A program made the position numbers and the translations under genes. This document shows positions 4,378-30,680 of a DNA stretch of 56,570 nucleotides, in pieces. The stretch lies in assembly GCA_903896745.1 (NCBI GenBank), contig CAITZA010000035.1:1-56570 (forward strand), read 5' to 3'. The first letter of the stretch is position 1; every line of letters begins with the position of its first letter. The stretch is from an uncultured Desulfomonile sp. (lineage in GTDB: Bacteria > Desulfobacterota > Desulfomonilia > Desulfomonilales > Desulfomonilaceae). Below the pieces are notes generated by a model, which was not told the DNA's origin, made no database searches, and saw only the letters and a list, made by a program, of their open reading frames with translations.

Positions 4378-5873
4378 CAAAACTACTTCTCGTAGATGAT
4401 GAAGCCAGCATTCGCAATTTGTTGCGCATGACTCTTGAAATGGACGGCTATGAGGTGTTAGAGGCCACCGATGGTCAAGAGGCCATCAATGTTTTCGAAA
4501 AAGAGTCGCCTGAATTGGCGTTGCTGGATGTCAAGTTGCCGGGAATGAGCGGTATGGAGGTTCTGGAAAGGATAAGACGGATTAATCCAGACGCTGAAGT
4601 CATTATGATTACGGGCCATGGGGACATGGACATGGCCATTGAATGTCTCAGGCGAGAGGCTTCCAACTTTCTGATCAAGCCGGTCAGCGAGGAATTGCTG
4701 TCCCTCTCGTTAAAAAGATCGCTGGAGAAACTAAACCTAAAAAAGAAGTTAAGGCAATATACCCATAATCTCGAAACCCTGGTCAGAGAAGCTAATATAG
4801 AACTCGAAAGGGCTTACACTTTTCGCGAAAACATAATTGAAAATTCTCCGGACGCTCTTGTCAGCATTCGGAAAGGCGGTGAGATCATTCTTTTTAACTC
4901 AGCGGCGGAGAGACTTTTGGGGCATTCCAAAAAAGATGTAGTTGGGAAAATGAATATTGTCGATTTATATCCTCCGGGAGTCGCCAAGAAAATAATGAAG
5001 GATTTGAGATCCGGTGATTTTGGAGGGAAAGGTCTCCTGCAGAAGAGGGAAGTACAGATCCTGCACAAAAGCGGCAAGACGATTCCAGTTTATATTTCGG
5101 CTGCGCTGTTATTCGAGGGCGGTCAGGAAACCGGCTCGGTTGGAATCTTTACGGATCTCTCAGAAAAGAAGAAACTGGAAAAACACTTGATAAGGTCCGA
5201 AAAACTTTCTTCACTCGGAAAACTTGCGGCAGGAATTGCTCATGAAATGAATCAGCCTTTGACAGGCATTCTGACTTTTGCCAGCGTCCTCATGAAGAAA
5301 TTCAGTAAGGACCCTGATACCTGTAAGGACCTTGAAGTCATCATTCGTGAAACAAATCGAGTTAGAGGCATTGTTCAAAACGTACTGGATTTTTCGAGAG
5401 AAACCCCTCCCTCAAAAAAACCGGTTCAGGTTCAGGAAATCGTTCAACGAGCGCTTGACATCATGTCACCACCAACCAATTTCCCCGGCATCGACCTGAA
5501 AACCGGGTTCCAGCCGAATGTCCCTGATATTCTGGTAGATGCAAACCAGATGCAGCAGGTTGTCATGAATATTGTGATCAATGCGGTTGAGGCTATGCAT
5601 GGAAGAGGAAGCCTGACGATCCGAACCCGTTCTTCGGGTTCCAATGTAGAAATTGAACTGAAGGATTCAGGCCCCGGCATGTCCGAGGAAACTCTGGAAA
5701 ATATCTTTGACCCATTCTTTACTGCGAAAACGTCCTTCGATGCCTTGGGAATGGGGCTTGGGCTCGCAATCAGCTATACCATCGTCAAGAATCATGGTGG
5801 AGAAATACTTGTTACGTCCAGGGAAGATACCGGTTCAACCTTTACAATAAGATTACCTCTTTTGTCTGAATAA
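4374..5873 (+). CDS. Hybrid REC-PAS histidine kinase
   Basis: A 499-residue protein with an N-terminal receiver domain (Asp52 in LLDVKLPG, Lys in LIKPV), a coiled-coil linker (about 115-148), a PAS domain (about 150-265), a HisKA domain with His290 in GIAHEMNQPL, and a C-terminal ATPase domain (DSGPGMS, GMGLGLAIS). A receiver placed before the kinase means phosphorylation can control the kinase. Overlap with the preceding kinase suggests the two act together, and the REC-GAF protein upstream could be a further partner. No DNA-binding output exists in this three-gene group, so its target lies elsewhere. Confidence 0.9.
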   Translation: MTKLLLVDDEASIRNLLRMTLEMDGYEVLEATDGQEAINVFEKESPELALLDVKLPGMSGMEVLERIRRINPDAEVIMITGHGDMDMAIECLRREASNFLIKPVSEELLSLSLKRSLEKLNLKKKLRQYTHNLETLVREANIELERAYTFRENIIENSPDALVSIRKGGEIILFNSAAERLLGHSKKDVVGKMNIVDLYPPGVAKKIMKDLRSGDFGGKGLLQKREVQILHKSGKTIPVYISAALLFEGGQETGSVGIFTDLSEKKKLEKHLIRSEKLSSLGKLAAGIAHEMNQPLTGILTFASVLMKKFSKDPDTCKDLEVIIRETNRVRGIVQNVLDFSRETPPSKKPVQVQEIVQRALDIMSPPTNFPGIDLKTGFQPNVPDILVDANQMQQVVMNIVINAVEAMHGRGSLTIRTRSSGSNVEIELKDSGPGMSEETLENIFDPFFTAKTSFDALGMGLGLAISYTIVKNHGGEILVTSREDTGSTFTIRLPLLSE

Positions 5874-5931
5874 AACATTTTCCGAACCGGGTCGCTTGGG
5901 GCGATTCCGGCTAAAAAGAAACGCGTTGGTC

Positions 5932-6576
5932 ATGAAACATAAAGTTGACATATATTGCCCCGATTCAGTGGTTCTTGAAGGACTTTTGGAAACTCCCGAT
6001 TCAACTACCGTCAAACCCTCAGGCTGTGCTCTGGTCTGCCATCCGCATCCATTATATGGCGGGGACATGTACAACAATGTTGTCTCCGAACTGTGCGAGA
6101 CTTTTATCTCCCAGGGAATCGTCACGCTCAGATTTAATTTTCGTGGTGTTGGAAGAAGCACAGGTTCTTATGGAGAGGGTTTATCGGAAATGATCGATGT
6201 GGCTTCGTGTATGGACTTTCTGGCGTCTGACAGCAGGGTGAGTTCATCAAGAATATTGCTTGGCGGATATTCGTTCGGCAGTTGGGTTTCAATGAAAGCG
6301 GCCATGAAGGATGACAGGCCATCAAGTCTGATAATGATATCGCCACCCGTAGATATGTATGATTTCAGCTTCTTGCGGGAAGAAAAACGGCCTAAGCTCA
6401 TGGTGACGGGTGACAGGGATTTTGTGTGCTCGGTAAAAGGATTCAACGAACTGTCCTCAATCGCAGGCGAGCCAAAAATGTCTGCTATACTGAAAGGTCA
6501 TGATCATTTTCATGGCGGGAATGAGGACGCCATATCCAAAATAGTGAGGGAATTTCTTGCGGAATATCCTTTATGA
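5932..6576 (+). CDS. Alpha/beta hydrolase (COG2945-like)
   Basis: A 214-residue alpha/beta hydrolase. Seen: HPHPLYGG near the N terminus, the nucleophile elbow GGYSFGSW with Ser114, an Asp in TGDRDFVC, and a late His in GHDHFHGG. These form the expected Ser-Asp-His triad. Substrate cannot be predicted; the group includes esterases and dienelactone hydrolase-like proteins. I chose the ATG at 5932 because an open extension to a TTG at 5896 begins only 22 nt after the kinase stop and is Arg/Lys-rich, unlike the family. It follows the signalling genes and may be co-transcribed with them. Confidence 0.8.
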   Translation: MKHKVDIYCPDSVVLEGLLETPDSTTVKPSGCALVCHPHPLYGGDMYNNVVSELCETFISQGIVTLRFNFRGVGRSTGSYGEGLSEMIDVASCMDFLASDSRVSSSRILLGGYSFGSWVSMKAAMKDDRPSSLIMISPPVDMYDFSFLREEKRPKLMVTGDRDFVCSVKGFNELSSIAGEPKMSAILKGHDHFHGGNEDAISKIVREFLAEYPL

Positions 6577-16592: not shown

Positions 16593-16615
16593 CCGGTTCA
16601 TTTAATCTGAACCGG
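16593..16615 (-). terminator. Hairpin overlapping the gvpJ stop codon
   Basis: CCGGTTCA (16593-16600) and TGAACCGG (16608-16615) form a perfect 8-bp stem around a 7-nt loop. The gvpJ stop codon (16598-16600) lies within one arm. As the last gene of the gvpA operon, gvpJ could end here, but no T run follows, so an RNA-stabilising role at the 3' end is equally likely. Confidence 0.4.
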
Positions 16616-16846
16616 CGCATCCTGTTTATGAAACGCCGGATTATTGACCCACCAATCAATACCAATCTCTTTGGCCTTGTCCACAGAGCAGACTACAAGC
16701 CGTATCTGAATTGTTAATAGTTCCACGTCAACGAGTTTGATCTTTATGTCACCCGCTATAACTATTCCCTTGTCCAAGACCCGCTCCAGCAGGTCTGCCA
16801 AGTTCGTGCTTTCAACAGAATGTCTGGTGTATTGCTGAACAGCCAT
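16598..16846 (-). CDS. gvpJ: Gas vesicle minor shell protein GvpJ
   Basis: An 82-residue GvpA-like protein. The core follows the GvpA fold pattern: LADLLERVLDKGIVI, then GDIKIKLVDVELL, then QIRLVVCSVDKAKEIG. The changes GDIKIKL instead of DAWAKVSL, and IDWW after the core, fit GvpJ/GvpM rather than the main shell protein GvpA. Minor shell proteins are thought to form the tips or help nucleation. An AAGGAGGA site precedes the ATG by 5-6 nt. It is the last gene of the operon that begins with gvpA. Confidence 0.85.
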   Translation of the reverse strand: MAVQQYTRHSVESTNLADLLERVLDKGIVIAGDIKIKLVDVELLTIQIRLVVCSVDKAKEIGIDWWVNNPAFHKQDAPVQIK

Positions 16847-16857
16847 ACTGGTCCTCC

Positions 16858-17271
16858 TTACAGCAACTTGCCGAGCGGACCGAGGTCGAGATTCAAGTCT
16901 TTTTCTTCAAGATTAAATTCCTTGCGTAATCTCTCGATCTCCTGCGCTTGTTTCATCAAAGTCAATCCAAGATTCTCTATTTCGGTGTCAGTCAGAGACC
17001 CTGCTTCCATTCTACGGATAGCCTGACGCTCGAGCAATTCATGAAGCAGTTTGATCAACGTTAAGACGAGCTGTCCGAGGCCATTTTTTACATTGTCCTT
17101 ATCCAAACTGATCCTGGGCGCGTCGTGTTCCCTATCATGTTGATGCAAAGAACCAACATTCATTATCTTTGCAAAATCAGCGAGGTTTTCGGAGCTGATT
17201 ATCCTGTCATGTGCGCCCAGAGACTCCGAATCACTCTCCGGGTCATTAACCCTGTAAACGGATGTTCCCAA
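16858..17271 (-). CDS. gvpK: Gas vesicle protein GvpK
   Basis: A 137-residue protein whose second half is clearly GvpK: VKNGLGQLVLTLIKLLHELL, ERQAIRRMEAGSLTDTEIE, then MKQAQEIERLRKEF. GvpK is needed for vesicle assembly in several bacteria; its exact role is unclear. The first 48 residues are poorly conserved and Asp/His-rich. The start is a TTG (17271) with AGGAAAG at proper distance; no good ATG lies before the conserved core. It is 11 nt upstream of gvpJ and 82 nt downstream of the gvpS-like gene. Confidence 0.88.
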   Translation of the reverse strand: MGTSVYRVNDPESDSESLGAHDRIISSENLADFAKIMNVGSLHQHDREHDAPRISLDKDNVKNGLGQLVLTLIKLLHELLERQAIRRMEAGSLTDTEIENLGLTLMKQAQEIERLRKEFNLEEKDLNLDLGPLGKLL

Positions 17272-17353: not shown

Positions 17354-17563
17354 TCATGATTGCGAAAAATAAGGAACACTTTCGGATTCCTTAAGTCCAA
17401 GCCGTCGCCCCGTCTCCACTGAACTCAGGATTATTTGAAGCCCAAGGTAAATGAGATCCACGTTAGCTACAGATATGGTAACATCTCCAACTATAACAGC
17501 GCCTTTGTTCAAAACCCTGTCAAGCACCTCACAGAGAGACACATTCTTGTTTTCATCTTCCAT
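17354..17563 (-). CDS. gvpS: GvpA-family minor gas vesicle protein (GvpS-like)
   Basis: A 69-residue GvpA-family protein. The pattern is CEVLDRVLNKGAVIVGDV, then ISVANVDLIYLGLQIILSSVETG. The GDVTISVANVDLIYL segment and the short tail resemble GvpS of Bacillus more than GvpA or GvpJ. Proteins of this kind are minor shell or assembly factors. An AAGG site lies upstream of the ATG. It sits between gvpG and gvpK, an order also seen in other bacterial clusters. Confidence 0.75.
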   Translation of the reverse strand: MEDENKNVSLCEVLDRVLNKGAVIVGDVTISVANVDLIYLGLQIILSSVETGRRLGLKESESVPYFSQS

Positions 17564-17598: not shown

Positions 17599-17982
17599 TC
17601 AGGCGTCAGAAACGTCATCTCCCGGTTCGGAATTCAGTATTTGAATGCTGCTTCCACTTTCAAATTCTTCATCTTCATCGGAATCCTCGTCATCTTCGTC
17701 ATCTTCCTCGTCGTATTCCTCGTCGTATTCGTCATCTTCCTCGTCAATTACAGCGCCTACCTCCTGCAGACTGTCCAGCCTGTCGAGAAGTTGAGCTTCT
17801 CTCTGATCAAACTCCTCTTCACTGATGGCGCCTGATTCCAGCGACATGTAAAGTTTTTGCAGTTCAACGGTTATAGACTCAGTTTCATTTTGACGTTCCT
17901 GCTTGGCCGCCTTGTGGATTTCCTCAAAGACCCATAGAACGCCTTTGAAGGGAGCCATTAAAATGTCGTCAACAATGAACAT
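17599..17982 (-). CDS. gvpG: Gas vesicle protein GvpG with long acidic tail
   Basis: A 127-residue protein. Residues 1-75 are typical GvpG: FIVDDILMAPFKGVLWVFEEI, then a helix with ELQKLYMSLESGAISEEEFD, ending REAQLLDRLD. Residues 80-110 are almost all Asp/Glu with a few Tyr, an unusual acidic extension. GvpG belongs to the accessory proteins that bind GvpA monomers with GvpF/L. The gene lies 23 nt after the third gvpF/L and 35 nt before the gvpS-like gene. A GGGGAAAA site precedes the ATG. Confidence 0.88.
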   Translation of the reverse strand: MFIVDDILMAPFKGVLWVFEEIHKAAKQERQNETESITVELQKLYMSLESGAISEEEFDQREAQLLDRLDSLQEVGAVIDEEDDEYDEEYDEEDDEDDEDSDEDEEFESGSSIQILNSEPGDDVSDA

Positions 17983-18005: not shown

Positions 18006-18773
18006 TTATGACTTTATATCAACCTCTACGAAATTATGAGGGGCCCATGGTCCGTTATAATCAAAAGCGAAGTTGTCATCAAAGTGATTGGCCGCCTCAA
18101 AGACTACGGCCTCAAATTTATCGGTCTGTCCACGACCGATGAGGCAGGCCAAATTCATCACTTCTCGCTCATCCTTGCATTTGTTCCTTTTTACTTCGGA
18201 ACAGGCCTTGAGGAGTATTTTTTCCACGAAATCTGTCTGGTCCTCACGTTCTGAGTCCAGGATGTTGGCAAAGAGTCTGCCAAGTTCGATTTTTTCGTCC
18301 TGGGTAGCCTCGCGGCTTCTTCCGATGAGCTGATCACGAGCCGTTCGCAGTTCTTCGTTCCTATTCACAAGGAACTCAAAAATGTTTATGACGTCAAGAT
18401 TCACCTTGAGGCCCATCTCCACTTTTCCGGCCACTCTGGCAAGGCCGTCGATGATGGATTTCTGATGCTTGGCCAGAAACTTTCTCACAGCGGCTGAGCC
18501 CTCTGAAACGTTACCGAACGACATAGGCAAGAGATCGCCCGTTTCAAGGAGTTTCTTAAGGACAGCCTGATGGGCGGCAAAGTTTCGTCGTTCAGGCCTG
18601 ATACGTCCGCTTGGCGCGTCAGAGACTACAGCGGAGACTTCGCCCGATGAAATGGTGTAAACATTGCTGCCGTTGATTCCGATAGTTCCGAATGAACGAT
18701 CTTCAACTCCGGAAGTAATGGCATATATGTAACGCCCAGTCTGTCCCGGAATTTTTTTGGTTCTTTTTTCCAT
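18006..18773 (-). CDS. Gas vesicle protein GvpF/GvpL (copy in gvpA operon)
   Basis: A 255-residue GvpF/L protein. Seen: GRYIYAITSG at the start, a middle stretch with AAHQAVLKKLLE and LLPMSFGNVSEG (the usual P[MF]xFG motif), and the C-terminal FDYNGPWAPHNFV, which is the diagnostic GPWxPYxF-type ending. GvpF and GvpL bind GvpA and are thought to chaperone it or nucleate the shell. ATG 18773 is preferred, since an upstream extension to 18869 encodes a segment with no family likeness. It is the third GvpF/L copy of the locus and the only one within the gvpA operon. Confidence 0.88.
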   Translation of the reverse strand: MEKRTKKIPGQTGRYIYAITSGVEDRSFGTIGINGSNVYTISSGEVSAVVSDAPSGRIRPERRNFAAHQAVLKKLLETGDLLPMSFGNVSEGSAAVRKFLAKHQKSIIDGLARVAGKVEMGLKVNLDVINIFEFLVNRNEELRTARDQLIGRSREATQDEKIELGRLFANILDSEREDQTDFVEKILLKACSEVKRNKCKDEREVMNLACLIGRGQTDKFEAVVFEAANHFDDNFAFDYNGPWAPHNFVEVDIKS

Positions 18774-18942
18774 ATTGCACCAGAGTTCGAGATTGTTTTG
18801 GAAATAATCGATAAAATAGACGCTTCTATAAAAAGAAAGCCGATTGGAAAGTCGGCCTCCAGGTGTCATGAGACACAGCGTCGGGATAGTCCGATTCTCA
18901 CAACGGCATTTTAACTCATTATAAAATATTTACAAGCTCAAC

Positions 18943-19152
18943 TCACGTGGTTTTGTTTTCCTCAAAAATCCTCGGTGGTCTTGCGGCAGCTGGTTGCGGA
19001 GCCTGCGCGAATCTTACGGACTTAACCTTGCCTTCTACGGTCTTGAGTTCAAAGAGACCGCTACAGACGTAGCACCTGACAAGGCCGTCAAAATCGTCAT
19101 AAGCTTCATCCAGATTCAGGCTATGACCACAGGTTATGCAGTTGACTTTCAT
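18943..19152 (-). CDS. Small zinc-ribbon protein in the gas vesicle operon
   Basis: A 69-residue protein with two CxxC knuckles (Cys5/Cys8 and Cys27/Cys30) 18 residues apart, the layout of a zinc ribbon. The remainder is a short basic strand region and an Ala/Pro-rich tail. A GGAAAGGATGATGAG stretch before the ATG provides a ribosome site. It does not match a named Gvp protein I know. Its place between gvpN and gvpF/L, with short spacing on the upstream side, argues for a role in vesicle assembly. The gap to the next gvpF/L is about 170 nt. Confidence 0.7.
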   Translation of the reverse strand: MKVNCITCGHSLNLDEAYDDFDGLVRCYVCSGLFELKTVEGKVKSVRFAQAPQPAAARPPRIFEENKTT

Positions 19153-19156
19153 CTCA

Positions 19157-19357
19157 TCATCCTTTCCTGACACTCGCCCGACATTGACCGCCAAACCATA
19201 TCTTCCATTCGTTGTAGGCGAGCCTAGAGTTTTTTGCATTGCCAATTCGGCCCGTATCCAGCTTCGACTGGGGAGCGGCAGCCGATTTCTTTAATGTCTT
19301 GTAGCCCTTGATCTCTGAGCTTGATATAATTTGTCTGTATGTTTTCACTGGAATCAT
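19157..19357 (-). CDS. Small basic protein of unknown function in the gas vesicle operon
   Basis: A 66-residue Lys/Arg/Ser-rich protein without recognisable domain. Support for it being real: ATG 19357 is preceded by GAGGGGGTTAGG, it ends 4 nt before the zinc-ribbon gene starts, and no other reading of this 280-nt interval is better. The low complexity and lack of recognised homologues leave doubt. If real, it would be a small accessory gas vesicle protein. Confidence 0.5.
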   Translation of the reverse strand: MIPVKTYRQIISSSEIKGYKTLKKSAAAPQSKLDTGRIGNAKNSRLAYNEWKIWFGGQCRASVRKG

Positions 19358-19435: not shown

Positions 19436-19804
19436 CTAGTACCTAATTTTAAACCCGTCCTTATCCCTTATAGCCCCTTTACCGGAAATATTGAACTGAT
19501 CCTTGGCCACTGCGCATACAGGTCTGCCTGTCGTCCGTCCCGCAAGTTTTGGAGCATCCTTGTCGGATATTCCCAGTCCCTCGAGAATGGCTCTTTTTTC
19601 GTTTTCAATGTCGCAAATTCTGGCGTCAATGTTTCGGATTCTGGCCAGAGCGCTACTCTTCTCTTTCTCGCGCCGCGCTCTCTCCATCTCAAGACAGCTA
19701 ATCTTCATGAATGCGAGGTATGGGAGTCCTACGGCATCCACGCGCCCTGCATAAGTACGGATTTCTCGAACTCCTCGAATGTCAGCGGTCTTTTTTATTT
19801 CCAT
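19436..19804 (-). CDS. Coiled-coil gas vesicle accessory protein (possibly GvpV-like)
   Basis: A 122-residue protein with an N-terminal basic segment, a central helix rich in Glu/Arg/Lys (about residues 37-78: EMERARREKEKSSALARI, then RICDIENEKRAILEGLG) and a Gly/Lys-rich tail. The helix and the segment PYLAFMKISCLEME before it recall GvpV of cyanobacteria, but similarity is weak. ATG 19804 has AGGAG seven nt upstream. It lies 15 nt downstream of gvpN, so it is co-transcribed. Naming it GvpV is inference. Confidence 0.6.
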   Translation of the reverse strand: MEIKKTADIRGVREIRTYAGRVDAVGLPYLAFMKISCLEMERARREKEKSSALARIRNIDARICDIENEKRAILEGLGISDKDAPKLAGRTTGRPVCAVAKDQFNISGKGAIRDKDGFKIRY

Positions 19805-19819
19805 TGTCAACACTCCTGA

Positions 19820-20821
19820 TTAAAGGTCTGCAAGTTTTGGAGCGGTCTTCCTGACGCTTTTGTTTTGACGGCAAACTTTCTTGATTATTTCATCGACTTT
19901 CTGCTTCATCAATGACTCACCACCGCGTGTAACCTTTACTGTATCAGTGTTTAGCACGTCACGGCAAATCCACTGGAAGGTTTTGTCCGTCTCAGAGGCA
20001 GTAGCGCCGAGATGCTGCAACACGCGACTGATGGCTATGCAGGCCCTGATTGTCGGCCTATGATTGTTCACACCAACCTGTCGCAGTTCCCTTATAATAT
20101 CAACTATTATTTCAGCGTCCTTTCGGGGAACGCCGGATTTGGCCATGGTAATCTGAATTTCTGTTTCCCGGTCATAGTGATTTACATTTATCGTAATTAA
20201 CCTGTCCATTAGAGCGTCCTGGGTTTTGTGGACACCTGCATATTCCTCAGGATTAGACGTAAAAATTGCTCTAAAGTCAGGGTGGACTTCCATATAACCC
20301 TCACCTGTTCTTCTAAGGCTCGGGAGATTCAATATTTTCTCTTCCAGAATGCTCAAAAGCACGTTATTGGCTTCAGGTCTGGATCGGGTAAACTCGTCAT
20401 AAATTAAGGTGTATCCGTCTCTACATGCTGTTGTAAGTCTATTATCGACCCACAGGCTTCGCATTTCCTCTTCGGTTCTTACGACCGAATGGATGAAGTT
20501 ATCAACCAGTTTGGATTTTTTATATCCTGCGTCTCTACCAACCAAGTCTGAGCTTCCAAATTCATCGTCTCCATGGACCAGTATGACAGGTCGACTCAGA
20601 CGCGCCGCTATATGGAATGCTAGAGTCGTCTTTCCGGTGCCTGCTGGTCCGGCGAAATGAACTGAGTACCCAACAGCTAGATAGGCCATCGCCCTTTCGC
20701 TGAGTTCTTTAACGTAGAGCGTGTTAACAAATTGATCACTCGCCTCAGGAAGAACATTGTCCTGATCGGATTTAATTATTTCTGAATCTAGGGCCTCTAT
20801 CTGAGAATCGGGATTTATCAT
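19820..20821 (-). CDS. gvpN: Gas vesicle AAA+ ATPase GvpN
   Basis: A 333-residue MoxR-class AAA+ ATPase. Walker A GPAGTGKTT is at residues 58-66, followed by VILVHGDDEFGSSDLVG, which is typical of GvpN, Walker B YTLIYDEFTR, and the sensor region AIFTSNPEEYAG. GvpN is thought to remodel or recruit shell components during vesicle growth. A GAG-type ribosome site precedes the ATG. The gene lies 105 nt downstream of the six-motif zinc protein, with a GCCGGC hairpin in between, and 15 nt before the coiled-coil gene. Confidence 0.92.
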   Translation of the reverse strand: MINPDSQIEALDSEIIKSDQDNVLPEASDQFVNTLYVKELSERAMAYLAVGYSVHFAGPAGTGKTTLAFHIAARLSRPVILVHGDDEFGSSDLVGRDAGYKKSKLVDNFIHSVVRTEEEMRSLWVDNRLTTACRDGYTLIYDEFTRSRPEANNVLLSILEEKILNLPSLRRTGEGYMEVHPDFRAIFTSNPEEYAGVHKTQDALMDRLITINVNHYDRETEIQITMAKSGVPRKDAEIIVDIIRELRQVGVNNHRPTIRACIAISRVLQHLGATASETDKTFQWICRDVLNTDTVKVTRGGESLMKQKVDEIIKKVCRQNKSVRKTAPKLADL

Positions 20822-20896
20822 GACATCTCACTTTCTAAGCCGCACGTAACTTCTACAGGTTGATAAAAAGTTAACCTGCAACATAATTGGAGTCGG

Positions 20897-20920
20897 GCCG
20901 GCCTTTTTAAAGTAGCCGGC
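20897..20920 (-). promoter_or_regulatory. Hairpin between the zinc-finger gene and gvpN
   Basis: Two GCCGGC hexamers (20897-20902 and 20915-20920) form a perfect 6-bp GC stem with a 12-nt AT-rich loop. No T tract follows on the minus strand. It may set relative expression of the operon's two halves by attenuation or by RNA processing. Confidence 0.4.
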
Positions 20921-20926
20921 GCCAAC

Positions 20927-21298
20927 TCAAGCTAAAATAAAACCTTTGCCGTGGCATCTGATGCAGGCTAGTGCGGGAGCAGAGCCATCATCACCAGATC
21001 CTGCGCATACAGGGCATGATACTATAGGCGCCGAGGGTAACGGCACATGACCCTTGCCACCACAAGTCGTACAGGTGAGCGTCTTCACGGCTCCGGTGCC
21101 ATTACAGTGCGGACAGACTTTATAGGGCGCCTCAATGTTGACGACGCCCCTACCACCGCATATGCAGCACGTGGACAGCCATGACATGACCCCAAAGGGG
21201 TCAGTTCCAGAGCCACCACAAAATGCGCAAGTTATTTCAGTCATGTTTGGTTGATCGACGCCATGCTCAGCTATTAATTTTTCATTTTGCCGTTTCAT
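20927..21298 (-). CDS. Zinc protein with six CxxCxGxG motifs (DnaJ-type)
   Basis: A 123-residue protein made almost only of zinc motifs: CAFCGGSG, CCICGGRG, CPHCNGTG, CTTCGGKG, CPVCAGSG and CIRCHGKG. In DnaJ four such motifs form two zinc sites that bind unfolded protein; here six would form three. There is no J domain or peptide-binding domain. The first 25 residues are a polar lead. ATG 21298 is preferred to a TTG at 21316. Placed between the GvpC-like gene and gvpN, it is probably a holdase for shell proteins, but that is inference. Confidence 0.85.
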   Translation of the reverse strand: MKRQNEKLIAEHGVDQPNMTEITCAFCGGSGTDPFGVMSWLSTCCICGGRGVVNIEAPYKVCPHCNGTGAVKTLTCTTCGGKGHVPLPSAPIVSCPVCAGSGDDGSAPALACIRCHGKGFILA

Positions 21299-21316
21299 GG
21301 CTTTACTCGTTATCAA

Positions 21317-22105
21317 CTATTTCTTGTCTTTCTTTTTTGCTCCCATTCCTGAATCGACCGGAGCGGGGGCTGTTTTCTCTTGTTCCACCGGCTTCGTTTC
21401 TGCAAGCGCTTTTGCTCTGGCTTCCGCCAACAGCTTGGCTTTCATCTCGGCCTCAGCCTTGGCTTTTTGTTCAGCAAGCATCTTGGCTTTTCGTCCAGCT
21501 GGTGACAGTGTATTCCAGGCTTTTCTCGCTCCAGCCATATCATCGGCATTAACCCGCCGCATTGCGCTGACTTCTGCATCCAAAGCGGATACAAACTTCT
21601 TTCGGTCGGCTTTGGCGGCCTTGGCCTTCTTGGCGTGATCAGCCTTGAACCCATCCATCATAACTGCTGTTTCGTTAGCTTTTGCGGTTACGAATTTAAC
21701 GACGTCCTTTACGAATGCCGTGTTTTCCCTTTTGGTCTTAACCGCCATATCCACGCGAGCTTTGTGGTAGCCAGTCAACATATTGGATATGTTGTTCGCT
21801 ATATTTGAAACGAACTCCACATTTGCTTTCTTGGTTTTCTCGGCCATCTCGGCATGGGATTTGTCAAAAGACTTGAGCATGCCGGCGACTTCCGCATCAA
21901 GATTGGACACGAACTTAACTCTGTCGGCCTTCGTACGTTTTGCCATATCCATGTTGGCCTTACGAAAACCGTTCCGCATCGTGGCAACCTCAGACTTCAT
22001 CTCTTTGGTCTCACGATCCAACTGATTGGAAAAAATCTGGCGAGAATCCCTCAGGGCGACTATTTCGTCGCAGAGTCTGGTTATGTCATCGGTCAGATTG
22101 CCCAT
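21317..22105 (-). CDS. gvpC: GvpC-like repeat protein of the gas vesicle shell
   Basis: A 262-residue helical protein. Residues 43-75, 76-108, 109-148 and 149-181 are repeats of one unit: each begins Met-x-x-[GS]-[FY], has a [DEK]MA-x-[KR]TK-type centre and an FV[SK] at positions 23-25. Three units are exactly 33 residues; the third is 40, a 7-residue insertion. GvpC of cyanobacteria is built from 33-residue repeats and stiffens the vesicle from outside. After the repeats comes an Ala/Lys/Glu-rich helix (about 205-240) and a short Lys tail. Position between gvpA and gvpN is typical of gvpC. The sequence itself is not close to cyanobacterial GvpC. Confidence 0.75.
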   Translation of the reverse strand: MGNLTDDITRLCDEIVALRDSRQIFSNQLDRETKEMKSEVATMRNGFRKANMDMAKRTKADRVKFVSNLDAEVAGMLKSFDKSHAEMAEKTKKANVEFVSNIANNISNMLTGYHKARVDMAVKTKRENTAFVKDVVKFVTAKANETAVMMDGFKADHAKKAKAAKADRKKFVSALDAEVSAMRRVNADDMAGARKAWNTLSPAGRKAKMLAEQKAKAEAEMKAKLLAEARAKALAETKPVEQEKTAPAPVDSGMGAKKKDKK

Positions 22106-22258: not shown

Positions 22259-22477
22259 TTATGCAGGAGCGGCGGCGCTGGCAGTAAGACCAATTGCTTC
22301 GGCATATTTTAGATAGGTCTCGACCGATGCGATTACAATTCTCGCCTCGACTGAGAGCAGCTCGATACCAACCAATGAAACCTTCGCCCAAGCGTCGATC
22401 ACGATACCTTTGTCCAAAATCCTGTCCACAACCTCTGCGAGGCTGGATGAATCTGTTGATTTCGCTATCTTGGCCAT
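22259..22477 (-). CDS. gvpA: Major gas vesicle structural protein GvpA
   Basis: A 72-residue protein nearly identical in pattern to Gvp[41 protein letters not shown] and [15 protein letters not shown]. GvpA polymerises into the ribbed wall of the gas-filled vesicle. The tail is short and Ala-rich. ATG 22477 has a GGAGG site 7 nt upstream; an ATG at 22489 lies inside that site. It is the first gene of the operon and is preceded by a sigma-54-type promoter about 72 nt upstream. Confidence 0.97.
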
Positions 22478-22548
22478 TTGACCCTCCATTTATTTTTTGT
22501 TTTTGCCTTTACAGGCTTTTTATGTTTGGCATGCCGACCTTAGTTATT

Positions 22549-24951: not shown

Positions 24952-25671
24952 TCATACAAAATTGTATGGAGCCCACGGACCACTTATGAGGACGCGCGCC
25001 CCCAAGGTGGGCCTGATCTCATCAAATATTTCCCTAAACCGCTCAACAGATGACTTGTGGATCAGAAAATGGATTGAAACCAGAATTTCGTTACCCGAGG
25101 AATTCTGGATAGCTTTTGGGGAGGATTCAACCTTGTGCTCGATATAAAGACCTTCCACAGCTTTTCTGGAAGCGTCGATAATCTCCTGACATCTTGAATC
25201 CAGACCGTTCTGGTATGTATAGAGAGTCCTTCGTTTTGCCAGGTACGACTTGCCAGGATTATCACTATCGACTTCGTTGTTTTCGTTTTCTTTCAAATCG
25301 ATTTGTTCCGTTTGGCGCTTATCGAGGATTAGCCTTATTCCCATTTCAATCTTATTGTCCAGCCTGAATAGGGTAGATTCATAATCCGTGCCACGTTGAT
25401 CGAGATGACGCATTACCTCGCTTTCACTGGCAAGAATAGTTTTGAAGCGAAAAGGGATTACGGGGCCACAACGGAAACACAGATCCACAACATTGTGATA
25501 GATTAATAGGTTTTGAATATCCAGGGATATTTCGGAAGGATCGAAATCTGAAATTACAGCGGCAATTTTTCCATGTTCTACAAATTTTATCTGCTGATCC
25601 TGGACACCTTTATTTTGCGGTAAATCTTTAACCGCCCCGGACCATAGGACACAGTATAACAGGCGTTTCAT
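24952..25671 (-). CDS. Gas vesicle protein GvpF/GvpL (second copy)
   Basis: A 239-residue GvpF/L protein. The N-terminal KRLLYCVLWSG strand, the segment VIPFRFKTILASE in the middle (the P-x-RFGT-type motif) and the C-terminal SGPWAPYNFV ending are diagnostic. A charged insertion with repeated Glu/Asn lies at about 125-150. The start overlaps the stop of the upstream gvpF/L (TAATG), so translation is coupled. It is the partner of the copy at 25671-26489 and separate from the copy in the gvpA operon. Confidence 0.87.
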   Translation of the reverse strand: MKRLLYCVLWSGAVKDLPQNKGVQDQQIKFVEHGKIAAVISDFDPSEISLDIQNLLIYHNVVDLCFRCGPVIPFRFKTILASESEVMRHLDQRGTDYESTLFRLDNKIEMGIRLILDKRQTEQIDLKENENNEVDSDNPGKSYLAKRRTLYTYQNGLDSRCQEIIDASRKAVEGLYIEHKVESSPKAIQNSSGNEILVSIHFLIHKSSVERFREIFDEIRPTLGARVLISGPWAPYNFV

Positions 25672-26489
25672 TACCAGTTTTCCATTTCGAGCGGAGGAGC
25701 AAAGCTATAGGGAGGCCAGGGGCCGGATATCGTTAATTCAAGACCATCACAGTCCGAATTGGAATTTGTTGCGAAAACAAGTTCCTGCAATTTTTGAAAA
25801 TCAGATTTATTTAATAACACCGCCCAGTTGGCGACAAGTTCTTTGTTATTTTCGTCAAAAGCGTTTTTGTGAGCTTTTCTCGCTTGCAACTGACTCGATA
25901 TTGAATCCAGGCTGGTCGCTACTTTTTGAATCTTTTCATTTACCCAGGAAGAAATATCCTTTTCAACTTCGGCCTGAATCTGTTTTTCCCGGAAGTACCT
26001 AACCCCCGGAGAGAGACTTGATAAATCGATATCGAGTATGTCAATCCTCTTCTGAAACAGTGTGGCCTTAAGTCTGTCCCGATCCAGATAGACCCTGATA
26101 GCCCACTCATCCTTGTCCCTGATCAATTCCAGGAACTCTATAATCGAGTCGTAGTTGGACTCAGCCAGGGAAATCAGTTTCTGCTCCGACGAAAACAGGG
26201 TTCCGAACCTGGCCGGCAAAACCGGGGAGAGAGCGCACATCTCCTGGACAACCTGGCCGTGTCGCAATGCCCTCGGGGTGACCCATTCGACATTGTTAAG
26301 CCTTTCCTCCGCGCCCGGCCCAGCAAAATCCTCCAGGGGAACCTTGCTCACCACCATTACCAATTCCCTAAATGGTATCCTGAAAAGTTTTTGTCCTTCA
26401 ACAAGACCAAAACCCGGTTCCCCATCCGGCGCCGGGCCACTTTTCGCAAAACAGAAAAAATAATAGGCTTCAGACAATTTTTCACCCAC
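25671..26489 (-). CDS. Gas vesicle protein GvpF/GvpL (first copy)
   Basis: A 272-residue GvpF/L protein: YYFFCFAKSG start, ELVMVVSKVPLEDF, the motif VLPARFGTLFSSEQ, and the C-terminal SGPWPPYSF ending. The start is GTG 26489, directly after an AGGG site. It is the first gene after a strong terminator at 26543, so a promoter probably lies in the 55 nt between them or transcription reads through. GvpF/L proteins bind GvpA in the cytoplasm before assembly. Confidence 0.87.
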   Translation of the reverse strand: MGEKLSEAYYFFCFAKSGPAPDGEPGFGLVEGQKLFRIPFRELVMVVSKVPLEDFAGPGAEERLNNVEWVTPRALRHGQVVQEMCALSPVLPARFGTLFSSEQKLISLAESNYDSIIEFLELIRDKDEWAIRVYLDRDRLKATLFQKRIDILDIDLSSLSPGVRYFREKQIQAEVEKDISSWVNEKIQKVATSLDSISSQLQARKAHKNAFDENNKELVANWAVLLNKSDFQKLQELVFATNSNSDCDGLELTISGPWPPYSFAPPLEMENW

Positions 26490-26594: not shown

Positions 26595-28721
26595 TCATTC
26601 GCTTACTTCATCCAGCGTTTTGAGAAGGTCATCTTTGGTCAATTTAACTTTTATTTTTGCATCAGGATTTTGTTTAAGGGATTCAACCGCTCTCCTGACA
26701 GCCTTGAGCGCGGCTTTCTGACATATTCCAGCTATGTCGGCGCCGCCAAACCCCTCTGTCTGGGAAGCCAACCATTCTGGATTGATACCCTTTTCTAGAG
26801 GTTTGTTGCGTAAATGAACCCCAAAAATCTCGATCCTGTCCTGTTCAGTAGGCATGGGTATCTCGAATATCTCATCGAATCGTCCGGCTCTAAGTATAGC
26901 GGGATCTAATATATCCAAACGGTTGGTAGCTCCTAAAACCAGCACACCTTTGAGTTCTTCTATGCCATCCATTTCCGCCAGGAACTGACTTAGCACCCTT
27001 TCCGCAACATGAGAATCACCTGATGATCCGCCTCGAGCAGGAACGAGCGCATCAATTTCATCAAAAAACATTATACACGGGGAGGCCTGACGAGCTTTAC
27101 GAAAAACATCCCGCACACCTTGCTCGGATTCTCCCACATATTTCGACAACAGGGATGGGCCCTTGACCGATATGAAGTTTACCTTGCTCTCGTTGGCTAT
27201 TGCTTTTGCCAGCAATGTTTTGCCACAACCCGGAGGACCTGCCAGCATTATGCCTTTAGGAGGTTTGGCGCCGGCTTCTGTGAAAACTTCCGGAAACTTT
27301 AGAGGCCACTCAACCGACTCGACCAACCTGGCTTTTAGCTCGCTATGCCCCCCCACATCTTCCCACTTCACGTCCGGAACTTCTACAAACACTTCCCTGA
27401 TCGCCGATGGCTCGACTTCCTTGAGGGCCGACATGAAATCGTCCATCCGGACTTCAAGTTTTGCCAGTTGCTCATAGGGTATTCCCGCCATTGCAAAATC
27501 GATGTTGGGTAATATCCTTCTAAGGCAAATCATGGCCGCTTCCCGGCACAGAGCTTCCAGATCGGCGCCTACAAAGCCATGTGTGATTTCGGCCAAATGC
27601 GGCATTTTGACATCTGACGCCAAGGGCATTCCCCGACTATGTATCTCGAGGATTTCGAGGCGGCCATTTCTATCGGGAATAGGTATGGCAATTTCACGGT
27701 CAAATCTGCCGGGCCTCCTCAGGGCTGGGTCAAGCGCGTTGGGGATGTTCGTGGCGGCTATAACGATCAGGTTTTGACGCTTGTTCAGCCCATCCATCAA
27801 TGCAAGAAGCTGCGCTACAACCCTTTTCTCAACGTCCCCAACCACTTTTTCCCTTTGCGGAGCAATGGCGTCAATCTCATCGAGGAAAACTATGCTAGGA
27901 CCTTTGGCGGCGGCTTCGGCAAAAATTTTTCTCAGGTGGGCTTCACTTTCACCATAAAATTTATGAACTACTTCCGGCCCACTAACCGAATAGAAATTGG
28001 CTTCAGTCTCGTTTGCAATTGATCTTGCGATGAGAGTTTTTCCGCAACCTGGGGGGCCATGTAACAACACTCCCTTGGGCGCATCGATCCCCAGTTTTTC
28101 GAAAACCTCAGGGTATCTCAAAGGAAGCTCTATCATCTCCCTGATTCTGTTTACCTGGGGCCTCAGGCCGCCAATATCCTCGTAGGACATGGCGCCGGGT
28201 GTTGTGGAACGATCTGAGGTCTTTCCAATGACTAGTTGGGTGGTAGGGTTTATAAGAACCGGTTCACCGGGTGAAACACTCTCTACCAGGAAATCTGCCG
28301 ATCTGCTACCAAAGAGAGTGGCTCTGACAGAATCACCGACCACAACGGGCAGTCCATCAAGAAGGCTACCGATATATTCCAGGTCTCTCTCGGAGGTCGT
28401 GACGTTGATTGGGGAAAGAACCACCTTGTCAGCCGGTTTGCAGACTATTTTGGTTACCGTAACGTTTTCGTCAATTCCCGCTTTTGCGTTTTGCCTGGAA
28501 ATCCCGTCCAACTGAATTCTGGACTGACCCCTCATTTCCTTGTAGGCGGGCATAGCCTTGCATACTGTTTTGCGTTTACCGGAAATTTCTACAATATCGC
28601 CAACATTAGCGTTGAGCCTTTCAAGATCCTCCGGACCCATTCTTGCAAAAGCTCGCCCTATATCCTTACCTAAGGCCTCAGAAACTTTAAGTTTTATCTC
28701 AAGCTTCTCTGTTTTTGCCAT
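26595..28721 (-). CDS. Cdc48/VAT-like double AAA+ ATPase
   Basis: A 708-residue protein with a Cdc48 N domain (1-165) and two AAA+ modules. Walker A GPPGCGKT is at 222-230 and 494-502, Walker B FLDEID at 279-284 and FFDEID at 552-557, each followed by RPGRFD or RAGRFD arginine-finger motifs. Archaeal VAT and eukaryotic Cdc48/p97 have this layout and unfold or extract proteins. Bacterial members are uncommon. It lies between the Hsp20-like gene (14 nt upstream) and a terminator, all within the gas vesicle locus, so it may remodel vesicle proteins. Lateral transfer from an archaeon is possible. Confidence 0.93.
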   Translation of the reverse strand: MAKTEKLEIKLKVSEALGKDIGRAFARMGPEDLERLNANVGDIVEISGKRKTVCKAMPAYKEMRGQSRIQLDGISRQNAKAGIDENVTVTKIVCKPADKVVLSPINVTTSERDLEYIGSLLDGLPVVVGDSVRATLFGSRSADFLVESVSPGEPVLINPTTQLVIGKTSDRSTTPGAMSYEDIGGLRPQVNRIREMIELPLRYPEVFEKLGIDAPKGVLLHGPPGCGKTLIARSIANETEANFYSVSGPEVVHKFYGESEAHLRKIFAEAAAKGPSIVFLDEIDAIAPQREKVVGDVEKRVVAQLLALMDGLNKRQNLIVIAATNIPNALDPALRRPGRFDREIAIPIPDRNGRLEILEIHSRGMPLASDVKMPHLAEITHGFVGADLEALCREAAMICLRRILPNIDFAMAGIPYEQLAKLEVRMDDFMSALKEVEPSAIREVFVEVPDVKWEDVGGHSELKARLVESVEWPLKFPEVFTEAGAKPPKGIMLAGPPGCGKTLLAKAIANESKVNFISVKGPSLLSKYVGESEQGVRDVFRKARQASPCIMFFDEIDALVPARGGSSGDSHVAERVLSQFLAEMDGIEELKGVLVLGATNRLDILDPAILRAGRFDEIFEIPMPTEQDRIEIFGVHLRNKPLEKGINPEWLASQTEGFGGADIAGICQKAALKAVRRAVESLKQNPDAKIKVKLTKDDLLKTLDEVSE

Positions 28722-28735
28722 CTGAATCTCCTACA

Positions 28736-29263
28736 TCAATTCTTTAGCTTGATCTCAACCATCCCATTGTTGCAGGAGTAGGACATTTTACTCTTGGGAT
28801 AGGCCTTTGATAAAAGCACCTCTTTGCTGTATTTTTTGTCATCACGTTCTGCAGTTATGGATAAGACATCATCCTTGATATCGAGTTTCACATCTCCCTT
28901 ACTTATTCCGGGCATCTCGGCAACAACCAGAGTGTGATCTTCCTCTTCAAAAACATCCACCAGAGGTTCTCTAACCTCCTGAACGAAGGTGCGTCCCGAC
29001 TCTTTGTCTCTGGCAACATTGCCAAACGGCTCCACTTTTATTTTGTCTTCCCCTTGCTTGCCCCCTCCGAACCTCACATTAAAACCATAGACAGCCTTAA
29101 GGTCCTTTTCTCCGCCAAATTTAGGTATTTCGCCCGAGCTTTTGAGGGCTTGTCCCTTCTCGGCAAGTTCCCCCAACTTGTGTACCAAATCCGCCAGGCC
29201 TCCCAGAATTCCTCCAAAAGGCTGACCTTCACTATCTGAGGTGTCTTTAACTTTCTTCACCAT
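28736..29263 (-). CDS. Hsp20-type chaperone, GvpH-like
   Basis: A 175-residue protein. The C-terminal 90 residues are an alpha-crystallin/Hsp20 domain: PLVDVFEEEDHTLVVAEMPG, DVKLDIKDDVLSI and the strand MVEIKLKN. The N-terminal 85 residues are Gly/Lys-rich and contain FGGILGGLADLVHKLGELA, a pattern seen in GvpH of gas vesicle clusters. Small heat-shock proteins hold unfolded clients; here GvpA is the likely client. ATG 29263 (or 29266) follows GGAGGA. The start overlaps the end of the NtrC-type gene by about 17 nt. Confidence 0.82.
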   Translation of the reverse strand: MVKKVKDTSDSEGQPFGGILGGLADLVHKLGELAEKGQALKSSGEIPKFGGEKDLKAVYGFNVRFGGGKQGEDKIKVEPFGNVARDKESGRTFVQEVREPLVDVFEEEDHTLVVAEMPGISKGDVKLDIKDDVLSITAERDDKKYSKEVLLSKAYPKSKMSYSCNNGMVEIKLKN

Positions 29264-30680
29264 CATCGTCCTCCGAATACAGTCGAATGCTGTATTGCTT
29301 AATTTTGGAATGCATAGTCTTGTAATCAATTTGCAATAACCGCGCCGCCTTTGCTTTGTTGCCTCCTGTCTTTCGGAGGGCTTTGAGTATTACTTTGCTT
29401 TCCACATCCGCAATTGACTTGTGAACAATTTCCCTTAACGACAGGCCTTCCCACTCGCCCGTTTCATCCTTCTTCTGAACCGGTTCATCCCTGGGCTGCT
29501 CAGAATCATGTATGGACAGGTGACGTGGATGAATATAATCGGTGGCCTGCAGCACGGCCCTTCTGATTGCCGCACGAAGCTGTCTGACATTCCCCGGCCA
29601 TTTGTAGGTCGCTATCGCGGAAACACATTCAGCTGAGAAACCAAGGACATTCTTGTTCAACTCCACATTTGTGGCATGGATGAACCTTTCGGCCATGTGC
29701 ATTATATCTTCCTTGCGCTCCCTGATAGGCGGTATAAATATGGTAAATTCACTAAGCCTGTAGAACAGGTCTCTACTGAACTGACCTGCGGCAACCTCAA
29801 GGTTGAGATCCTTGTTGGTTGCCACAATCAACCTGACATCCACTTCTACGGGTTCTCTTCCTCCCACCCTAAAAAAACTTTTCTCCTGAATTGCCCTCAA
29901 CAGCTTGGTTTGGCAACTAACAGGCATATTCGCAACTTCATCGAGGAAGAGAGTCCCTCCCTGAGCCATCTCAAACTTTCCGGGGCGCGAACTCACAGCG
30001 CCGGTAAAAGCTCCTTTCTCGTAACCAAAAAGCTCCGATTCAAAAAGTGTTTCGGGGATTGCCCCGCAATCTACTGGTATTAGCGCCGCCTCTGACCGAA
30101 GACTCGCCTGATGCACCGCCTGTGCAATCAGTTCCTTGCCTGTTCCGGTTTCTCCCTGGATGACTACCGAGAAATCAGACGCTGACACAAGCCTCAGATC
30201 GGAAATTATCCTCGTCACCTCCTGACTAGGCCCCATCATGTCTTTGAGCTGCACTAGAGACAGGTCTTTCTTTTTCAGTAAAGGCGCCTTTTTCTTGCTA
30301 ACAAGTGACCTCGTTGCTAGGGCTCTTCTGATTTTCTCAATCAACACCTGGTTATCAAGGGGTTTGGACAGATAATCGAAAGCCCCGTCCTTAATCGCCT
30401 CCACCGCCCCATGCACTCCGGAATATGCTGTCACCATTATGATAGGCAGCTCAGGACTCATCTGCTTTGCCTTCCTGAGAGCCTCCATTCCATCCATACC
30501 GGGCATTTTTACATCCAGAAGCACTACATCGGGCAATCCTAGACGGATCATATCCAACGCCATTTCCGCATCATGGGCCACCAGAGATGTGAATCCCGCC
30601 CGCTTTAGAACCCGAAACAGTATGTCGCAAAAATCCTTTTCATCATCGACTATTAGGATCTTGGCAAAGCCTGACGTCAT
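29247..30680 (-). CDS. NtrC-family sigma-54 response regulator
   Basis: A 477-residue regulator. Receiver domain 1-125 with Asp56 in LLDVKMPG; AAA+ domain about 145-385 with Walker A GETGTGKE (176-183), the sigma-54 contact loop GAFTGA (223-228) and Walker B TLFLDEV; a C-terminal Fis-type helix-turn-helix (about 430-470, GGNKAKAARLLQ). It should activate -24/-12 promoters once phosphorylated. A matching promoter lies before gvpA, and a PAS kinase is encoded at 23381, so it is most likely the switch for vesicle formation. Confidence 0.95.
   Translation of the reverse strand: MTSGFAKILIVDDEKDFCDILFRVLKRAGFTSLVAHDAEMALDMIRLGLPDVVLLDVKMPGMDGMEALRKAKQMSPELPIIMVTAYSGVHGAVEAIKDGAFDYLSKPLDNQVLIEKIRRALATRSLVSKKKAPLLKKKDLSLVQLKDMMGPSQEVTRIISDLRLVSASDFSVVIQGETGTGKELIAQAVHQASLRSEAALIPVDCGAIPETLFESELFGYEKGAFTGAVSSRPGKFEMAQGGTLFLDEVANMPVSCQTKLLRAIQEKSFFRVGGREPVEVDVRLIVATNKDLNLEVAAGQFSRDLFYRLSEFTIFIPPIRERKEDIMHMAERFIHATNVELNKNVLGFSAECVSAIATYKWPGNVRQLRAAIRRAVLQATDYIHPRHLSIHDSEQPRDEPVQKKDETGEWEGLSLREIVHKSIADVESKVILKALRKTGGNKAKAARLLQIDYKTMHSKIKQYSIRLYSEDDDGEES

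Follow-up and report, generated by a model that had tools for sequence, protein, structure and literature searches.

The 56,570 nucleotide stretch of Desulfomonile DNA analyzed here (the window) contains a gas vesicle gene cluster encoding P0001, a 123 amino acid protein with six CxxCxGxG zinc motifs. In the genomes surveyed, this zinc protein is found with gas vesicle genes and almost nowhere else. Our surveys gave strong matches at 20 places, 14 in the phylum of the window and six elsewhere in two further taxa, and every one of them has gvpN or gvpA as a neighbor. Because the homologs are confined to gvp clusters in this way, they make up an unnamed gas vesicle accessory family, and it is close to certain that P0001 is a gas vesicle accessory protein of some kind. 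The suggestion of an earlier note on this DNA that the gene might encode a new gas vesicle factor is therefore strongly supported. The family is missing from about half of the genomes that carry gvpN and is sometimes duplicated.

The P0001 gene occupies positions 20930..21298 on the minus strand, with an ATG at 21298 and a stop codon at 20927-20929; an in-frame TTG at 21316 is an alternative start that would add six residues. The earlier note described six motifs making up nearly the whole of a protein without a J domain. All six motifs are present, at residues 24, 44, 62, 76, 95 and 112, and "nearly the whole" is right for the motif span (residues 24-119 of 123, or 78%), with the motifs proper accounting for 48 of the 123 residues (39%). 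When the residues of P0001 were shuffled 20,000 times, no shuffle contained more than two motifs, versus six in the real protein. The only Pfam match above cut-off was to the DnaJ central domain (PF00684; 37.7 bits, cut-off 32.7), which agrees with the absence of a J domain, and the NCBIfam DnaJ_bact model gave 37.2 bits, far below its cut-off of 377.2. The anti-TRAP models were also below cut-off in P0001 (NF058604, 43.9 of 65 bits; PF15777, 30.9 of 32 bits). All 23 scanned members of the family matched PF00684, PF15777 and NF058604 at a threshold of E ≤ 0.01, which for PF00684 is not the family cut-off. No Gvp family model in Pfam or NCBIfam matched P0001 or its homologs, and no family in either collection gives the six-motif protein a name.

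The zinc gene lies, as had been noted, between a GvpC-like gene (21317..22105), which ends 18 bases before it, and gvpN (19820..20821; AAA ATPase, TIGR02640 356.6 bits, cut-off 266.8), which begins 105 bases after it, and all three share the minus strand with the other cluster genes whose coordinates are given here. The GvpC-like gene has no Pfam or NCBIfam model above cut-off and owes its name to its position and its charged repeats; in related clusters, blast located relatives of it immediately upstream of the zinc gene. The shell protein gene gvpA is at 22259..22489 (PF00741 60.1 bits; NF006874 131.9 bits). Other members of the cluster are gvpF/L (18006..18869; PF06386 208.1 bits), gvpG (17599..17982; PF05120 65.7 bits), gvpK (16858..17271; PF05121 114.9 bits), and a second and a third gvpA-family gene (17354..17563 and 16598..16846; PF00741 61.7 and 64.1 bits). 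The upstream part of the cluster encodes a histidine kinase, a response regulator, two further gvpF/L genes (24952-25671 and 25671-26489; PF06386 154.3 and 153.4 bits), a Cdc48-like AAA ATPase (26595..28721; CDC48_N 82.3 bits, plus a pair of AAA domains), an Hsp20-family protein (28736..29329; PF00011 26.0 bits, cut-off 20.8) and an NtrC-type regulator. The response regulator, gvpF/L, AAA and Hsp20 genes were named by Pfam, and the kinase and the NtrC-type regulator by reading the sequence.

Several other features of these clusters were observed. The block of Cdc48-like AAA, Hsp20 and NtrC-type genes (26595-30680, minus strand) recurs in many related clusters. Between gvpN and gvpF there are three small unnamed genes on the minus strand, namely a 125 amino acid gene at 19436-19813, a gene at 19157-19357, and a zinc-ribbon-like gene with two CxxC at 18943-19245 that scored below the cut-offs of Zn_ribbon_4 and MJ0042_CXXC. 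None of the three has a Pfam or NCBIfam family above cut-off where scanned, and their relatives keep their order in many gas vesicle clusters. A G+C-rich inverted repeat at 20880-20930, between the zinc gene stop codon and gvpN, was not called by the terminator scan, and the promoter and terminator scan gave results within the range of chance. A large tandem P-loop ATPase, ArsA/Get3-like by sequence reading, is present among the gas vesicle genes of one related cluster (L007, 3649-5562) and in ten others (L084, L088-L090, L092, L093, L096, L098, L104 and L105), in many of them between gvpG and a gvpA-family gene; blast gave no match to it in the cluster of the window.

To determine how widely the zinc protein occurs, one genome from each of 84,980 species was scanned for exact short words, a search that misses divergent members for that reason, and 35 loci were recovered. 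The best five (L004-L008; 53-57% identity) were all with gas vesicle genes and came from two "Deltaproteobacteria" metagenome genomes, one Acidobacteria, one Crenothrix and one other Methylococcales; in L005 the neighbor on the contig is gvpN, and the gvpA genes of that genome are on another contig. Twenty-two loci (L009-L030) were ordinary DnaJ genes, with frames of 270-422 amino acids, four CxxC and, in 20 of the 22, HPD, and the remaining eight (L031-L038) matched over 18-19 residues only. Plasmids and phages gave no match, and none of the 73 stretches of viral contigs that matched a pattern encodes a relative.

Within the phylum of the window, a six-member profile (A2; E ≤ 1e-15) was used to survey 395 genomes. 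The earlier note had proposed looking for stand-alone six-motif proteins near gvpN; strong homologs were found at 14 places in 12 genomes, the copy in the window included, and each of the 14 adjoins an above-cut-off gvpN on the same contig at a distance of 76-452 bp. By the same TIGR02640 criterion, gvpN is present in 27 of the 395 genomes, and 15 of these 27 have no zinc gene at E ≤ 1e-15. No frame with at least three motifs was present in the fetched gvpN regions of those 15 genomes, of G198, or of the third copy in G102. Of 201 genomes from the order to which the Methylococcales genome belongs, 18 matched at E ≤ 1e-12. Four of these had E ≤ 5.9e-36; the other 14 scored no better than 5.8e-14, their frames being 378-439 amino acids long, and the 11 of these that were examined all had four CxxC and HPD. 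Two of 199 genomes matched in the phylum of the Acidobacteriota genome. All six strong genomes of these two other taxa have GvpA, in five of them on the contig of the zinc gene; in the remaining one (G395) the neighbor of the zinc gene is gvpN. The homologs are thus not mainly located away from gas vesicle genes.

A looser survey of 148 genomes of the phylum, using a 23-row profile (A3; E ≤ 1e-6), matched 102 genomes at 124 places. The scores fell into two sets: the six gas vesicle members all had E ≤ 4.6e-34, and the best of the other matches had 9.3e-12; of the remaining 118 places, 117 were in DnaJ-sized frames of 269-467 amino acids, and the two such matches in the genome of the window itself have four motifs and HPD. 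No six-motif stand-alone protein outside gas vesicle clusters was seen in the surveys. We did observe a stand-alone 79 amino acid frame (L134, 8254-8490; G053:C1) whose four motifs form two nearly identical two-motif CxxCxGxG modules, and its genome, G053, had no PF00741 match and no gvp relative within 17 kb, an empty result that does not prove absence. The G053 frame therefore indicates that stand-alone proteins of such a make-up can exist outside gas vesicle clusters.

Gene order was compared in 21 zinc gene loci (the window, L005-L008, L083-L095 and L130-L132; L083 shares its length and coordinates with L004 and was counted once). In 18 of the 21 the zinc gene immediately precedes gvpN, in L005 it is directly downstream of gvpN, and in L006 and L007 it is elsewhere in the gas vesicle cluster. 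By blast, the gene immediately preceding the zinc gene was a GvpC-like frame in 16 loci, none was detected beside the zinc gene in L132, and no fusion of the zinc protein with a GvpC-like protein occurred in any of the 21. Six clusters (L008, L083, L088, L090, L093 and L094) contained a second six-motif paralog. Among 24 homologous frames, 23 had six CxxC and one, the decayed L087, had five; its genome, G102, also carries an intact second copy (L086). One contig of this set, the Acidobacteria metagenome contig of L005, contains soon after the zinc gene a frame (5542-6177, plus strand) that by eye has a signal-like start followed by near-canonical ubiquitin.

A gvpN tree of 37 rows served to ask whether the zinc gene had been acquired a single time. 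When presence of the gene was placed on this tree, it appeared in both of the larger clades in a patchy fashion, with nine changes, at least five of them forced by well supported branches. The 17 rows without the gene include L111, with a partial gvpN, and L112, the third gvpN-like copy of G102; in L103 the 322 bases upstream of the gvpN match are too little to judge, and in L108, with 390 bases upstream of the gvpN match, a GvpC-like frame abuts gvpN. This distribution could be the outcome of lateral transfer, of loss, or of the two together.

The sequence itself is conserved. All 12 cysteines are invariant in the 23 rows of the A3 alignment, as are several of the motif glycines, and dN/dS was about 0.11-0.34 in four close homolog pairs, so the zinc gene is under purifying selection. 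Between motifs 1 and 2, residues 33-40 (codons at 21179..21202, minus strand, from the residue numbers) form a hydrophobic DPFGVMSW loop that is identical in all six rows of the A2 alignment and has counterparts in more distant members (DPFELLS, DPYGVPS); cysteines and loop alike are kept across phyla. The second paralogs in the same clusters lack this hydrophobic loop. The loop, which falls within the block of the predicted core that has the lowest confidence (mean pLDDT 77), is a candidate client-binding site.

The fold of P0001 was predicted with AlphaFold2 on eight rows (mean pLDDT 83.8, pTM 0.71; the first 15 residues below 50). A Foldseek search with the model gave no match at E ≤ 0.001. 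DnaJ and BSD2 structures aligned to it with TM values of 0.17-0.25 by query length and rmsd of 5.8-15.1, the DnaJ structures 1exk, 2ctt and 7zhs being at 0.21-0.25. Anti-TRAP chains fit the model locally, at 0.7-1.5 A over 29-35 columns, and were placed first by VIA-align, though weakly (Z 2.5-3.3); among the matches listed there, no DnaJ or BSD2 chain had Z above 2.8. As a control, the cysteine-rich domain of an ordinary DnaJ, taken from one of the loci, was carried through the same route with the same number of rows. This control matched E. coli DnaJ 1exk (TM 0.65, rmsd 2.7, E 1.7e-4), had no anti-TRAP among the matches listed, and contained long strands between motifs 1-2 and 3-4. The P0001 model has only short bridges, right after motifs 1, 3 and 5 and right before motifs 2, 4 and 6. 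The predicted fold thus resembles a tandem of three anti-TRAP-type modules, with one zinc each, more than a DnaJ cysteine-rich domain, and the idea that P0001 is DnaJ-like with more motifs holds for its sequence but appears not to hold for its predicted structure.

The motifs also sort into odd and even types in the 19 of 24 proteins usable for this calculation, where the split of 1-3-5 versus 2-4-6 was the best of the ten possible three/three splits (6.04, with the next at 1.96). Together with the predicted secondary structure and the local anti-TRAP match, this odd/even repeat favors zinc pairs 1+2, 3+4 and 5+6. The damage in L087, which hits motifs 1 and 6 together, speaks against that pairing. 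The constant spacings in the family (18 between motifs 2 and 3 in every member, and 18-19 between motifs 4 and 5) could be read as pairs 2+3, 4+5 and 1+6, a scheme we set aside because the ordinary DnaJs in the loci allow the argument to be reversed, their 2-3 spacing being variable (22 or 26) and their 3-4 spacing constant at 14. P0001 is accordingly best read as three tandem two-motif modules, each probably binding one zinc.

Several known systems come close to the zinc protein. Anti-TRAP (AT, RtpA; PF15777, NF058604) is likewise a stand-alone protein built of CxxCxGxG pairs with no J domain, but P0001 carries six motifs in one chain and scores below the anti-TRAP family cut-offs. Anti-TRAP exerts its regulation by binding to a protein ring and is not known as a chaperone. 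It is a trimer of a 53 amino acid protein with two motifs and one zinc (PMC2896485, PMC4027176), the single zinc being held by its four cysteines (PMC4027176). The DnaJ cysteine-rich domain shares the motif and the glycine pattern with P0001 but has four motifs instead of six and is accompanied by J and C-terminal domains that P0001 lacks. BSD2/ZnJ2 of the chloroplast (PF25436) is, like the zinc protein, a stand-alone cysteine-rich protein without a J domain that is tied to one large assembly, although it has four motifs and PF25436 matched only two of the 23 members, weakly. Since the predicted fold mismatches BSD2 as a whole, the likeness to BSD2 concerns motif and life-style rather than fold. 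The known Gvp proteins resemble the zinc protein in being encoded in the gvp operon beside gvpN, but none of their family models matches it. As far as titles, abstracts and term counts show, no paper listed by full-text searches, which covered few subscription papers and no supplements, describes a zinc protein of the DnaJ or anti-TRAP type within a gas vesicle cluster, though a table may mention one. The DnaJ mentions of the Psychromonas and Desulfotignum papers (PMC2405808, PMC4046663) stand in chaperone lists and make no tie to gas vesicles. The zinc modules are known ones; their tandem make-up and gas vesicle setting are new as far as these searches reach.

Since it occurs almost exclusively beside vesicle genes, the zinc protein probably serves vesicle assembly as a dedicated helper. 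Aggregation is reported for GvpA2, GvpA-type shell proteins are described as very hydrophobic and prone to aggregate, and GvpF and perhaps GvpG have been proposed as chaperones of the GvpA type (PMC11445434). ZnJ2, a four-motif stand-alone relative of BSD2, is reported to hold clients and, though it has no J domain, to keep RbcL from aggregating (PMC5818400), and by analogy the zinc protein may plausibly be a stand-alone holdase for GvpA. Setting GvpA aggregation and the ZnJ2 precedent beside the distribution of the zinc gene, we consider the likeliest role to be that of an ATP-independent holding chaperone or docking adaptor in shell assembly, with a putative client and a putative holdase action; we give this a little under an even chance, since the predicted fold resembles ring-binding anti-TRAP more than BSD2. 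The hydrophobic DPFGVMSW loop would bind a gas vesicle protein at a hydrophobic or helical segment that lies exposed, with GvpA the first candidate and GvpC or GvpN the next, and the bound client would be handed to GvpF or GvpN. Other chaperone-type genes in the clusters (Cdc48-like AAA, Hsp20 and three gvpF/L genes, with an ArsA/Get3-like ATPase in several) count for a holder, while the second paralogs without the loop and the best local fold match being a regulator count against it. The zinc protein is no universal need of GvpA, because more than half of the gvpN genomes of the phylum do not have the gene. A broader version, which we advance tentatively and with more doubt, is a family of gas vesicle assembly chaperones present in three phyla or more. 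In this version, triplication of an anti-TRAP-like module within a single chain would have produced an ATP-free holder of shell proteins, which later gave rise to two specialized paralogs in the same operon and was repeatedly gained or lost with the operon.

The local resemblance to anti-TRAP can also be read as a sign that the AAA ring of GvpN is the partner of the three-module protein, which would either couple this ring to GvpA or GvpC or restrain it, much as anti-TRAP attaches to TRAP and so prevents TRAP from binding RNA (PMC4027176). The position of the gene directly upstream of gvpN in most loci is consistent with such an adaptor or regulator of GvpN, but neighborhood in an operon does not by itself show binding, the gene is elsewhere in the cluster in L006 and L007, many gvpN genes have no such partner, and the anti-TRAP match is local, with a poor global alignment; we regard this role as less likely than that of a holder, but as a serious rival to it. 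The frequent GvpC-like frame directly upstream, and the C-terminal zinc-finger motif described for Halobacterium GvpC (PMC9501494), raise the idea of a shell-associated part sitting with GvpC on the vesicle surface, a detached counterpart of the haloarchaeal zinc-finger domain. The absence of any GvpC-like fusion in the 21 loci, and of a detected GvpC-like gene beside the zinc gene in L132, counts against this rival, to which we give a small but real chance.

Anti-TRAP being a regulator, the zinc sites might instead be the switch of a regulator of gvp expression or of a redox or zinc sensor, and the clusters do contain histidine kinase, response regulator and NtrC-type genes. These same genes mean that the cluster already has other regulators, however, and the six-motif protein has no nucleic-acid-binding family over cut-off in Pfam or NCBIfam. 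DnaJ-type cysteine domains can show thiol activity, but ZnJ2 itself is reported to have no reductase activity (PMC5818400), and we consider a regulator or sensor quite improbable. That the gene is a mere passenger, a decayed DnaJ fragment retained by chance, might be argued from the gvp clusters that do without it and from the decay of one of the two copies in G102. This is largely excluded by conservation, given the low dN/dS, motifs that are invariant across phyla, the kept position and a module structure unlike DnaJ, and it deserves hardly any credence.

GvpA aggregates even in detergent, and a small protein that is confined to gas vesicle operons and consists of chaperone-type zinc modules is a testable candidate for keeping it fit for assembly. 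The D. vacuolatum gas vesicle cluster is able to produce vesicles when expressed in E. coli (PMC10344784). Heterologous gas vesicles serve as ultrasound reporters, and the zinc protein might raise their yields. Besides DnaJ/BSD2 and anti-TRAP, the protein would give the zinc module a third use, in tandem.
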